Shown here piece after piece: positions 48,134 through 51,564 of a stretch of 64,000 bases of DNA. The position numbers and the translations under genes were made by a program. This stretch comes from Tabrizicola flagellatus (GTDB taxonomy: Bacteria; Pseudomonadota; Alphaproteobacteria; Rhodobacterales; Rhodobacteraceae): contig NZ_VMDU01000008.1 of the NCBI RefSeq assembly GCF_008271465.1, forward strand, positions 1 to 64,000, read 5' to 3'. Position 1 is the stretch's first letter. Every line of letters starts with the position of its first letter. Under the pieces are notes generated by a model. The model was not told where the DNA came from, ran no database searches, and saw only the letters and a list, made by a program, of their open reading frames with translations.

Positions 48134-48251
48134 CCATCGGTTGAGCCTTCCTGATTGCCCGCAGACAACATATTGATTTCATTGGGGTGGGAGAGGCTGT
48201 CCACCGGGAACGCCACTGGACAGCGGCCGCCCGACCTGCCATTCTTTGCCG

Positions 48252-48620
48252 ATGAAGCTTCCCTCGCTCAATGTCCTTGGCCAGCCGCTCGAGCCCTGCT
48301 CCACCGACCCGGTGACCGGCTTCTTCCGCGACGGCTGCTGCAACACCGGCCCGATGGACCGCGGCCTGCACACCGTCTGCGCGCTGATGACGGCCGAGTT
48401 CCTGGCGCTCTCGAAGTATCTGGGCAACGACCTGTCCACCCCTCGGCCGGAATACGGCTTCGCGGGGCTGAAACCCGGCGACCAGTGGTGCCTTTGCGCC
48501 AGCCGCTTCCTGCAAGCACACGAGGAAGGCGCGGCACCGCAAGTCAGGCTTGCAGCCACGCATCAGGCAACCCTGGCCGTGGTCCCGCTCGAGATCCTGC
48601 GGCAGCACGCCAGCGATTGA
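48252..48620 (+). CDS. DUF2237 protein
   Basis: A 122-residue protein of the DUF2237 family: MKLPSLNVLGQPLEPCSTDPVTGFFRDGCCNTGPMDRGLHTVCA, then MTAEFLALSKYLGNDLSTPRPEYGFAGLKPGDQWCLCASRFLQA. Several conserved cysteines (CSTD, GCCNTG, WCLC) suggest a metal site or redox role; function unknown. The start 48252 is chosen over TTG 48246. Gene context gives no further clue. Confidence 0.8.
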   Translation: MKLPSLNVLGQPLEPCSTDPVTGFFRDGCCNTGPMDRGLHTVCALMTAEFLALSKYLGNDLSTPRPEYGFAGLKPGDQWCLCASRFLQAHEEGAAPQVRLAATHQATLAVVPLEILRQHASD

Positions 48621-48629
48621 CCTGTCAGC

Positions 48630-49166
48630 CTACTTGACCGGCACGGTGGCGTCCGGCGCGGCCTCCGGCATCGGGCGGATCGCCCCGTCGTCCCGCATGA
48701 GATCCTCGATGAACAGCGACAGAAGCTGCGGCCGCCCGGTCACTCCGGCCTTGCGATAGATCGCGTTGGTCTGCGCCTTCACCGTGCCCTCGCTGGTCGA
48801 GCGCAACTGCGCGATCTCGGCCGTCGACATCCCCTTGATCGCGAACAGTGCGACGTCCTTTTCCGAAGGGGTCAGCCTCCATTCCTCGAACCGTTCGCGC
48901 AGAAGGTCTGCGAAGGCACCTGATGCTCTCCGCAGCTGCTCCTCGGCCCGGTGCCGGTCGCGCAGAGCCCGCCGCAGCATGACCCCGCCAACCACCACGC
49001 CGAGGACCAGCCCGAAAGCCGCACCGATCTCCAGCGCCTCGCGCATCTCCCAGCTGATCGGAGTGCTGCGGATACCCACGACGGAAGACAGGATGTCGGA
49101 CACGAAGAAAAAGGCGCAGAGCGCCTGAACCAACAGGATCGCGATGTATGGCGCGGCGCGTTTCAC
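48630..49166 (-). CDS. Membrane-anchored LuxR-type HTH regulator
   Basis: A 178-residue protein with two hydrophobic segments (residues about 6-30, AILLVQALCAFFFVSDILSSVV, and 45-65, LEIGAAFGLVLGVVVGGVML), a short linker predicted to be helical, and a C-terminal LuxR-type helix-turn-helix (residues about 98-158): LTPSEKDVALFAIKGMSTAEIAQLRSTSEGTVKAQTNAIYRKAGV. There is no receiver, PAS or autoinducer domain. The protein is therefore predicted to place a DNA-binding domain on the cytoplasmic face of the membrane. The start is GTG 49166. It lies 27 bases downstream of the polyaspartate protein gene at 49194-49589, same strand. Confidence 0.82.
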   Translation of the reverse strand: MKRAAPYIAILLVQALCAFFFVSDILSSVVGIRSTPISWEMREALEIGAAFGLVLGVVVGGVMLRRALRDRHRAEEQLRRASGAFADLLRERFEEWRLTPSEKDVALFAIKGMSTAEIAQLRSTSEGTVKAQTNAIYRKAGVTGRPQLLSLFIEDLMRDDGAIRPMPEAAPDATVPVK

Positions 49167-49193
49167 TCGGAAACCATGGAACGGCGGGCCCGA

Positions 49194-49589
49194 TCAATCG
49201 TCATCATCGTCGTCGTCATCATCGTCGTCATCATCATCGTCGTCATCATCATCGCCGTCGTCGTCGTCACGGCCTCCGCTGCCGCTGCCGTCGCTACCAC
49301 CGCTATCCCGATCGTCGATGATGGTGACGGAACTCTTTCCCGTGACCTTCGGGATCCAGAGGTCGCGCAGAATCTCGCCGGTCTTGGGATTGACGATGAT
49401 TTCGCGGACGCCATCCCTGCGGCTGGCGATGATCCGGATGCGACCCAGAAGGGTCCGCTCCTCGCTGATGGAACGGAACCCGAGCCGGCGGAGCTGCCGC
49501 ACGATGCTTGCGACAACCTCCTCGGCAAAAACGGGTGCCCCGAGGAAAACACCTGTGGCAATCCCGGCAAGAAACGCACGCCGTCTCAT
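49194..49589 (-). CDS. Exported PepSY-like protein with 19-Asp tail
   Basis: A 131-residue protein. The signal peptide MRRRAFLAGIATGVFLGAPVFA has a twin-arginine-like RRAFLA start, so Tat export is possible. The core (residues about 23-85) reads IVRQLRRLGFRSISEERTLL then GRIRIIASRRDGVREIIVNP and KTGEILRD, a PepSY-like beta-alpha pattern ending in the typical TGEIL. A Ser/Gly/Asp linker follows, then 4 Asp, Gly and 19 consecutive Asp at the C-terminus (codons GAT and GAC mixed, 49197-49253). The extreme negative charge suggests binding of Ca2+ or other cations or of basic proteins; this is inference. Confidence 0.8.
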   Translation of the reverse strand: MRRRAFLAGIATGVFLGAPVFAEEVVASIVRQLRRLGFRSISEERTLLGRIRIIASRRDGVREIIVNPKTGEILRDLWIPKVTGKSSVTIIDDRDSGGSDGSGSGGRDDDDGDDDDDDDDDDDDDDDDDDD

Positions 49590-49630
49590 TCTTCCACTCC
49601 TGGGTCAGCCCCGGCAGTATGTGCGACGCC

Positions 49631-49657
49631 GAAAGCCCCGGCAATACCGGGGCTTTC
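49631..49657 (-). terminator. Terminator between the two polyaspartate genes
   Basis: GAAAGCCCCGG, loop CAATA, CCGGGGCTTTC: a perfect 11-bp stem, 22 bases after the stop of the upstream gene (49680) and 41 bases before the start of the next. The T-containing arm ends the stem, with no separate T run. Confidence 0.7.
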
Positions 49658-49679
49658 CACCTGGACGGATCTGCAGGGT

Positions 49680-50132
49680 TCAGTCGTCGTCACCATCACC
49701 GCCCTTGCCGCCGTCATCATCGTCGTCATCGTCATCATCGTCGTCATCGTGGTCGTCAGACCTGTCGTCGTCATCGGACTCGTCGTCATCGGATCCGTCG
49801 CGGCCCTTCCGACCGCGGTCGCCATCATCGTCGAAGTCGTCCCCGGACATCCGCACCTTCGAGCCGGTCCGGCCCTGATCCCTGGAGTCTGCGGCCTCTT
49901 CCTCGCTCTTGATCACCTGCATCGTCTCGTTGTCGTAGACGACCTCGATCTTGACGCCGCCCTTGATGGCCTCGACCTTGGTCTGCTTCGGGCCGACCGT
50001 GACCTCGACATAGCTGAAGCCTTCGGCCAGATACTGGTCAGCCAGCGATTGGCCTTCGACGGCAGCAAAGGCCGCGCTGGCGGACAGGACAGCGGCGGCG
50101 GTGTAGCAGAGCAACCTGGTTTTCAGTTTCAT
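49680..50132 (-). CDS. Exported PepSY-like protein with acidic tail
   Basis: A 150-residue protein with a Sec-type signal peptide (MKLKTRLLCYTAAAVLSASAAFA) and a PepSY-like core (residues about 24-75): LADQYLAEGFSYVEVTVGP, then KQTKVEAIKGGVKIEVVYDN and ETMQVIKSEE. The rest is acidic and disordered: an RG/KG stretch with Asp, then DDHD followed by 12 consecutive Asp (12 in all) and a GGKGGDGDDD end. GAGGAG precedes the ATG. It is homologous in layout to the neighbour at 49194-49589 although the tails differ. Role unknown; cation binding inferred from charge. Confidence 0.8.
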   Translation of the reverse strand: MKLKTRLLCYTAAAVLSASAAFAAVEGQSLADQYLAEGFSYVEVTVGPKQTKVEAIKGGVKIEVVYDNETMQVIKSEEEAADSRDQGRTGSKVRMSGDDFDDDGDRGRKGRDGSDDDESDDDDRSDDHDDDDDDDDDDDDGGKGGDGDDD

Positions 50133-50331
50133 GATGGATCTCCTCGGATTGTTTCCCTCGCACCGGCAAACCGCGATAGCCGCCGGGTGCATGAGATCCG
50201 CAATGCCGCAGCGGATGGTCCAAGGCCATTTGCCGGGGGTTTAGTCCCGGCCTCGTAATCATTCCGTTGGTTGGCCTAAACGATAGTTTATGCCGCAGAC
50301 CCGGCCTAGGCGGGCCGGGCTGCTCTGGTGG

Positions 50332-51564
<1,233 letters not shown>

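Follow-up and report, generated by a model that had tools for sequence, protein, structure and literature searches.

How can a transcriptional regulator that is held in the membrane and carries no recognizable sensory domain receive a signal? This question is raised by a locus of Tabrizicola flagellatus, in which the gene for such a LuxR-type regulator directly follows two genes for small, putatively exported proteins with strongly acidic, aspartate-rich tails. The window, i.e., the whole stretch of DNA that was analyzed, comprises 64,000 nucleotides (positions 1 to 64,000 of the forward strand of contig NZ_VMDU01000008.1, assembly GCF_008271465.1) of a 3.6-Mb genome. An earlier annotation made from the letters of the window, hereafter the original prediction, described the three genes as a compact same-strand locus, and the coordinates of all three hold, with gaps of 90 bp between A and B and 27 bp between B and the LuxR gene. 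Comparison of the locus across genomes shows that A, B and LuxR are conserved together as a set, with a single conserved palindrome in front. The features concerned are as follows:

49680-50132, minus strand: gene A, 150 amino acids (aa), exported PepSY-like protein with acidic poly-aspartate (poly-D) tail and Sec-type signal peptide (predicted)
49194-49589, minus strand: gene B, 131 aa, exported PepSY-like protein with acidic poly-D tail and twin-arginine-like signal peptide (predicted)
48630-49166, minus strand: gene of the membrane-anchored LuxR/NarL-type regulator, 178 aa, GTG start
LuxR protein, predicted parts by residue: first transmembrane helix (TM1) about 8-28, periplasmic segment about 30-44, second transmembrane helix (TM2) about 45-66, helical stalk to 95, helix-turn-helix (HTH) 98-156
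50275-50292, minus strand: putative operator palindrome CATAAAC-TATC-GTTTAGG, 142 bp upstream of the start of A
50277-50290, inside the palindrome: exact operator core TAAAC-N4-GTTTA
50228-50243, minus strand: imperfect half-site copy TAAACCCCCGGCAAAT, 47 bp downstream of the palindrome

Conservation of the gene set and of the palindrome in front of it

The closest named relatives were Tabrizicola and Rhodobacter species and metagenome-assembled genomes (LuxR identity 78-90% among the best dozen matches). Altogether, 171 loci with any LuxR of the family were collected (166 distinct). Loci whose LuxR scored at least 160 bits were taken as orthologs (122 loci, 117 distinct), and the 49 distinct loci below 160 bits were taken as paralogs and excluded from the ortholog counts. 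B adjoins the LuxR gene in 120 of the 122 ortholog loci, the two others being L058, where the contig ends, and L073, which is described below. A second PepSY match further upstream, at the position of A and within about 2.1 kb, was detected in 88 of the 122. The PepSY profile behind these counts, which replaced a first regular expression for B that caught 16 of 80, was iterated on the reading frames around the same LuxRs; it mixes A, B and other PepSY proteins, A and B being assigned by position.

As an independent check of the linkage, a profile of the B core only was searched against whole genomes, where 58 or 14 first-look candidates were scored per genome, a depth at which distant relatives of B may be missed. 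Among 100 genomes of the window's taxonomic family, 68 of 72 matches precede a LuxR of this protein family on the same strand, at a distance of at most 2.5 kb (counted at 58 typed LuxR places, the 56 strongest plus two weaker ones). All 47 matches with E < 1e-15 are placed in this way, and the four matches away from a LuxR are all weak. Per genome, both genes were found in 41, LuxR only in 2, B only in 4 and neither in 53. In a set of 394 genomes, LuxR (E <= 1e-40) was found in 213 and B (E <= 1e-12) in 178, with both in 176, LuxR only in 37 and B only in 2. The expectation of the original prediction that the regulator and the PepSY-like proteins co-occur is thus borne out for B, which is found with LuxR far more often than apart from it.

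Nineteen genomes (17 with LuxR only and both with B only) were inspected closely. One B-only genome, G011, has its LuxR in two broken pieces and the other, G109, has a diverged LuxR at E 3.3e-40. Beside most of the weaker LuxRs of the LuxR-only genomes lies a different PepSY, in several cases separated from LuxR by a cytochrome b561-like gene; in L212 an A-type PepSY alone stands beside LuxR, and in L218 an A-type PepSY core lies in a frame without signal as assembled, next to a shortened LuxR. The LuxR gene is interrupted as assembled in L218 and in G011 (C11:41595-42070), and the A-type gene is interrupted in L218. Tandem LuxR orthologs about 2 kb apart were also observed, at G300:C1:753714-756328 (two B matches beside them) and at G179:C6:152072-154669 (B listed for one of the two).

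One neighbour is shared by most of these loci and lies before A, B and LuxR in gene order:

50332-51564: trpB

It was found upstream in 101 of the 122 ortholog loci. B still adjoins LuxR in all 11 loci that have more than 3.5 kb of upstream sequence and no trpB match (two of them from the same genome).

The shared upstream motif that the original prediction suggested looking for was found as the palindrome CATAAACYNNRGTTTATG, which precedes the operon in 96 of the 117 distinct ortholog loci (exact core within 2.2 kb before LuxR). The consensus of the 96 sites is C(A/C)TAAAC(T/C)NN(G/A)GTTTA(T/G)(G). Within 1.16 Mb of sequence, 98 of 104 cores fall within 2.2 kb ahead of LuxR, the usual distance to A being 120-170 bp, and TAAA-N6-TTTA occurs upstream of A in 68 of 85 distinct regions vs 0.0 in shuffles. 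Among the 49 paralog loci the core was detected once. In 35 of the 68 regions with the palindrome, TAAAC-N7-CAAT follows at +46 to +48; the downstream copy in the window (CAAAT) is a variant outside this strict pattern, and a further imperfect copy at about +23 was noted by eye. Because the exact core occurs once in the 3.6-Mb genome, in front of the A-B-LuxR operon, LuxR most likely regulates its own operon, and it is the obvious candidate for the protein that would bind the palindrome.

Presence of the core also follows presence of the regulator among the 394 genomes: at least one core was found in 147 of the 171 genomes whose LuxR reaches E <= 1e-64, the commonest number being one (96 of 171), and in 15 of 38 genomes with a weaker LuxR (1e-60 to 1e-40); four genomes whose LuxR lies between E 1e-64 and 1e-60 fall in none of the three classes counted. 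Three observations count against so close a tie between core and operon, however. A core is present somewhere in 63 of the 181 genomes without LuxR at E <= 1e-40, and 21 of the 117 distinct ortholog loci are without the exact core (a few of those contigs end too near). Moreover, the counts speak neither for nor against a wider regulon: candidates in the window's own genome, six one-mismatch sites by unrelated genes, were rejected, being fewer than those of the reversed control pattern (37).

In L148, L149 (divergent), L161, L167 and L180, an extra palindrome was observed about 1.6-2.2 kb further upstream, before an extra PepSY gene, as if the operator had spread with the gene copy; in L191, the upstream extra site is the only one.

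The regulator and its exported neighbours

The original prediction of a 178-residue protein with a LuxR-type HTH behind two membrane helices and no sensor domain agrees with three lines of analysis. GerE was matched at residues 98-150 (E 2.1e-7, above the Pfam cut-off), Kyte-Doolittle hydrophobic segments lie at 8-26 and 45-63, and the AlphaFold2 model has helices at 5-30 and 39-95 and a C-terminal HTH region at 100-162 (mean pLDDT 85.9). Among 66 aligned LuxRs (the window's and 65 relatives), 57 have exactly two hydrophobic segments and 9 have three, so that hydrophobicity in relatives and the AlphaFold2 model both predict helices that span the membrane. The net charge is +2 for the N-terminal segment, +3 for the segment after TM2 and 0 for the loop, and by the positive-inside rule the HTH should therefore be on the cytoplasmic side.

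The fold is of the NarL/LuxR type and the protein belongs to the GerE family; the HTH has StyR, RcsB, NarL and VraR as structural neighbours among solved structures, and a sequence-profile query of the same collection gave no match. It is not an acyl-homoserine-lactone receptor, as no autoinducer-binding domain was found in Pfam and NCBIfam scans, and it is not a NarL-type response regulator, as no receiver domain was found with Pfam, the N-terminal part consisting of the two TM helices and the stalk. Judged by these scans, LuxR has no receiver, autoinducer-binding or periplasmic domain. The best NCBIfam match is NF047608 (LIC13292 family transcriptional regulator, of similar length; residues 72-159, E 4.6e-17), but membership was rejected at 62.6 bits vs a cut-off of 200, and no literature was found under the name LIC13292.

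Q14, W39, E43, G52 and G60 do not vary among the 66 aligned sequences, and conservation is 98% at D24, P36, E46 and G56. The G52/G56/G60 spacing, which we take to be a glycine zipper, could pack TM2 into a dimer.

Protein A has a Sec-type signal and an acidic tail including a run of 12 D, and B has the twin-arginine-like signal MRRRAFLAG and ends in a long D run. Twin-arginine signals carry an RRx-hydrophobic motif in the n-region; window B has RRRAF. Among distinct B proteins whose start is usable, 77 of 110 have the motif, compared with 0 of 81 A proteins, so that twin-arginine export is predicted for B. The Asp codons of the tails mix GAC and GAT (13 and 13 in B, 22 and 12 in A), so the poly-D run is not a plain trinucleotide repeat. 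A net charge of -0.2 per residue or lower was calculated for 86 of 113 B tails and 79 of 84 A tails (L045, L198 and L149 omitted), and D runs of at least 8 are present in 43 B tails and 34 A tails of the same sets. Acidity is the general property of these tails, and poly-D its most extreme form.

The assignment to PepSY is less direct. Window A and B reached 12-14 bits against PepSY and PepSY_2, where the cut-offs are about 24 (B core 13.6 vs 24, A core 14.2 vs 24.3). PepSY_2 was matched at E <= 0.1 by 15 of 27 B members (best 0.0021) and 14 of 26 A members (best 1.3e-5). In the PepSY fold a single helix leads into an antiparallel sheet of four strands, and the predicted structure of B has a helix and four strands, with pLDDT 96-98 in the core and low confidence in the tail. 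Its top structural neighbour is a Mediator chain, and entries that presumably bear PepSY domains come at middling Z, tied with unrelated folds. The name PepSY-like is therefore weak on the window proteins alone, and leans on the relatives and on the predicted fold of B. A profile match of A to ribosomal uS3 among solved structures (E 1.2e-5) was judged to be chance over a short stretch, and the B profile gave chance matches alone there (best E 0.28). Of the two exported PepSY-like proteins with acidic tails in the original prediction, the tails and export signals stood; the PepSY scores stayed below cut-off, and a pair of PepSY genes is not the rule, A being present in 88 of 122 loci.

Partner exchange and the wider family

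In L073, the slot of B is taken by an exported EF-hand-like protein, with the palindrome about 150 bp before its start. This partner carries an EF-hand-like loop DRNDDGQLDRGEL, a second similar one DRDGSGGIGLSE and then a poly-D tail of the kind present in A and B; in its LuxR, D24 is replaced by T and R42 by Q, and P36 falls in a gap. In a search for EF-hands among 15781 frames near the LuxRs, five frames were hit, and L073 alone has one upstream of LuxR; no second case was found in the genus of L073 (LuxR in one of two genomes). Other exchanges involve small exported proteins (L213, L215, L216, L082 and L083), without Pfam match in the two that were scanned. W39 and E43 are both present in all 117 B-group LuxRs (the window's and 116 of the 122 loci; L044, L045, L058, L059, L073 and L198 omitted, a few duplicate genomes retained). 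Among the five LuxRs with a small non-PepSY partner, W39 is kept in one and E43 in one, and the compared HTH positions are unchanged. Q14 is kept in nearly every LuxR compared. Furthermore, given TrpB, the distances of the B core correlate with those of the LuxR membrane part at 0.405 vs 0.243 for the HTH (93 distinct sets with TrpB), each value being reached by 0 of 999 permutations.

The family extends beyond the orthologs. A PepSY profile match lies upstream on the same strand in 35 of the 49 paralog loci, and some of these loci carry a cytochrome b561 gene between it and LuxR. A second unit was detected in the window's own genome on contig C28 (L097:6260-7690, minus strand), with a PepSY of 91 aa (34.3 bits, above the Pfam cut-off), a cytochrome b561 of 214 aa and a two-TM LuxR of 170 aa, which is 41% identical to the window LuxR (GerE 23.0 vs a cut-off of 23.5 bits); the cytochrome and LuxR genes overlap. 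Cytochrome b561 (PF01292) was matched in the two paralog units tested, with E 8.2e-21 and 1.1e-23. In class-wide and phylum-wide searches, a LuxR at E <= 1e-25 was found in 14 of 279 genomes of the class (4 of the window's taxonomic family and 10 outside), and one at E <= 1e-18 in 19 of 299 genomes of the phylum. Outside that taxonomic family, several LuxRs have PepSY upstream, and L258 and L259 carry the B-type motifs; no PepSY profile match was found within about 1.5 kb in six of the 17 class-search loci (L247, L250-L254). Two further arrangements were observed. At G295:C4:247064-248070, two LuxRs of the family face each other end to end, a PepSY gene lying upstream of each on the respective strand, and around the LuxR paralogs L085, L086, L088, L090 and similar ones an extra exported protein, often Ala/Gly-rich, precedes a B-like PepSY.

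Several of these comparisons speak against a PepSY protein as the direct input of LuxR. The EF-hand swap is one genome, its EF-hand_6 match is below the Pfam cut-off (17.3 vs 25 bits, E 0.0039), and its LuxR retains W39, E43 and E46; L214, for which no partner was found, retains W39. Paralogs with a short PepSY (6 rows) or with PepSY and cytochrome b561 (9 rows) are without W39 and mostly without E43, so the motif marks the B type and not PepSY as such; D24 is retained in all 15. Of the paralog loci, 14 of 49 have no PepSY profile match, although one of them, in the window's own genome, has a PepSY by Pfam. In a tree of 67 LuxRs (45 of B-group loci drawn at random), the swapped LuxRs branch, at weak resolution, within the B-type LuxRs, and partner types cluster by clade; the residue change and the partner change may therefore share ancestry only. 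The lower HTH correlation may be noise from strong HTH conservation. Finally, the tails themselves are not uniform, 6 of the 113 B tails having a net charge per residue above -0.1, and the periplasmic segment of LuxR is short.

Possible signalling routes and remaining features

The closest published parallel is DbfQ-DbfRS of Vibrio cholerae, where, in the accessible parts of the report, a small exported PepSY gene likewise lies directly upstream of a membrane signalling protein, two PepSY proteins precede some modules of this type, and output is tracked by a reporter on the module's own promoter (PMC12714742). DbfQ is paired with a histidine kinase, which has a sensory domain in the periplasm, and with a response regulator, whereas the PepSY genes here adjoin a single 178-aa LuxR; with no kinase and no receiver, the window locus is not a DbfQRS module. 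As described in those parts, the published survey of PepSY neighbourhoods searched kinase and receiver domains only, and thus would have missed a PepSY-LuxR unit. Two PepSY proteins stand before signalling genes, as here, in PA2658/PA2659-BqsRS of Pseudomonas aeruginosa, where the nearer PepSY alone was predicted to bind the sensor (ipTM 0.89 vs 0.11) (PMC12714742). That protein may be likened to B, which is nearer to LuxR and more constant than A; BqsRS is a two-component system, and the text available does not mention poly-D tails for it. UipA and LanPepSY, as far as the sections consulted describe them, bind uranyl/iron or lanthanides and have a negatively charged face or acidic residues, and UipA lies by the two-component system UipRS (PMC8963506, PMC11845868). 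Their metal binding goes through PepSY tandems and not through a disordered poly-D tail of the kind present here.

A further comparison is offered by ToxR and CadC, whose DNA-binding domains are held at the inner membrane, ToxR having a neighbouring partner, ToxS. In these proteins a winged helix forms the N-terminus and a periplasmic domain is present, while the window LuxR has its GerE HTH at the C-terminus, behind two helices with a short loop. Literature searches returned no paper joining PepSY with LuxR and Rhodobacter, nor PepSY with cytochrome b561, and the two papers listed for membrane-LuxR phrases concern other systems, in Eggerthella/Gordonibacter. In these searches we found no description of a membrane LuxR arranged with acidic exported partners.

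We favour, at somewhat better than even confidence, a self-contained membrane signalling circuit in which a DbfQ-like PepSY input would act on a one-component regulator of an autoregulated operon. A LuxR dimer most likely binds CATAAACYNNRGTTTATG (often together with imperfect copies about 23 bp apart) and controls its own operon and probably little else. B, and A where present, would stay in the periplasm and may set LuxR activity via the short periplasmic segment and the membrane helices, much as DbfQ acts on the histidine kinase DbfS; these parts contain the conserved D24, P36, W39, E43 and E46 and the G52/G56/G60 spacing. More speculatively, the acidic tails might bind cations, occupancy of the tail or the PepSY core being the signal, and more A and B might be the response that closes a feedback loop. 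The original prediction of an envelope-to-DNA signalling unit stood in that co-function is supported beyond adjacency; for cation or protein status as what is reported to LuxR there are hints, namely the EF-hand-like swap, the partner-linked change of periplasm-side residues with its counter-cases, and the literature on metal-binding PepSY proteins. Given acid tails, one such swap and these published proteins, cation sensing is a reasonable guess, and both direct PepSY-LuxR contact and a cation signal are plausible. It is tentative, and somewhat unlikely as a whole, that the locus stands for a new one-component class, mainly of Alphaproteobacteria, in which a membrane LuxR works with an exchangeable exported sensor (PepSY with acidic tail, PepSY plus cytochrome b561, EF-hand-like or small uncharacterised proteins) as a closed cation homeostat on its own operon, typically with one operator per genome.

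The acidic proteins could instead be output only, an autoregulated LuxR sensing membrane state or a ligand by itself and inducing exported cation buffers without PepSY-LuxR contact. This is possible though doubtful. The palindrome in front of A and B, acid tails that suit a cation sink, the loss of the W39/E43 motif in PepSY-bearing paralogs as well, and the near-universal Q14 and the D24 of all 15 compared paralogs, as if the membrane helices sensed by themselves, are consistent with it; yet B remains beside LuxR whether or not A is present and however the tails differ, and within the ortholog clade it is the periplasm-side residues, not the HTH, that differ with other partners. It is unlikely that the family ancestrally reads an electron carrier or a redox metal such as iron, with the trpB-linked unit keeping this input without the cytochrome. 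The two tested PepSY-cytochrome b561-LuxR units, one in the window's own genome, point that way, and BqsS, which has been called an ortholog of DbfS, is reported to respond to iron, whereas the V. cholerae DbfQRS reporter is reported to be unaltered by Fe (PMC12714742); moreover, no cytochrome is encoded in the trpB-linked unit, and conserved Cys or His residues are absent from B.

Regulated proteolysis, with a protease freeing LuxR from the membrane and the PepSY proteins as its inhibitors, is very unlikely: a membrane-held HTH could be released, and an older proposal cited in the available text links PepSY domains to protease inhibition (PMC12714742), but no protease gene lies between trpB and LuxR in the window, and the long helix that continues from TM2 into the stalk, like the glycine spacing, suits a dimer that stays in the membrane. 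That the genes are neighbours solely through the syntenic trpB region, with no shared function, is hardly credible in spite of the frequency of trpB upstream, given the private palindrome, the 11 loci that keep B beside LuxR with no trpB match, and the paralog loci that keep an upstream PepSY.

For the favoured circuit, the interest lies in its size. The role of PepSY is unsettled, and in the closest published case found, DbfQ, it is reported to tune a histidine kinase (PMC12714742). A 178-aa membrane regulator that comes with PepSY proteins, a defined operator and naturally exchanged partners would offer a far smaller setting in which to learn what PepSY does, and the comparison of partner types is a way to read the signal. 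The locus also links the export of extreme poly-aspartate tails to regulation.

On the other side of the operon lies one convergent gene:

48246-48620, plus strand: 124-aa gene, convergent with the LuxR gene

Its product belongs to what we take to be the family DUF2237, and it is kept downstream on the opposite strand in 96 of the 122 ortholog loci. A, B and LuxR are the only genes between trpB and this gene in the window. Long plus-strand frames at 48951-50258 and 49144-49878 run antisense to A, B and LuxR; they are Ile/Val- or Ser-rich because poly-Asp codons are read backwards, and are most likely not genes.

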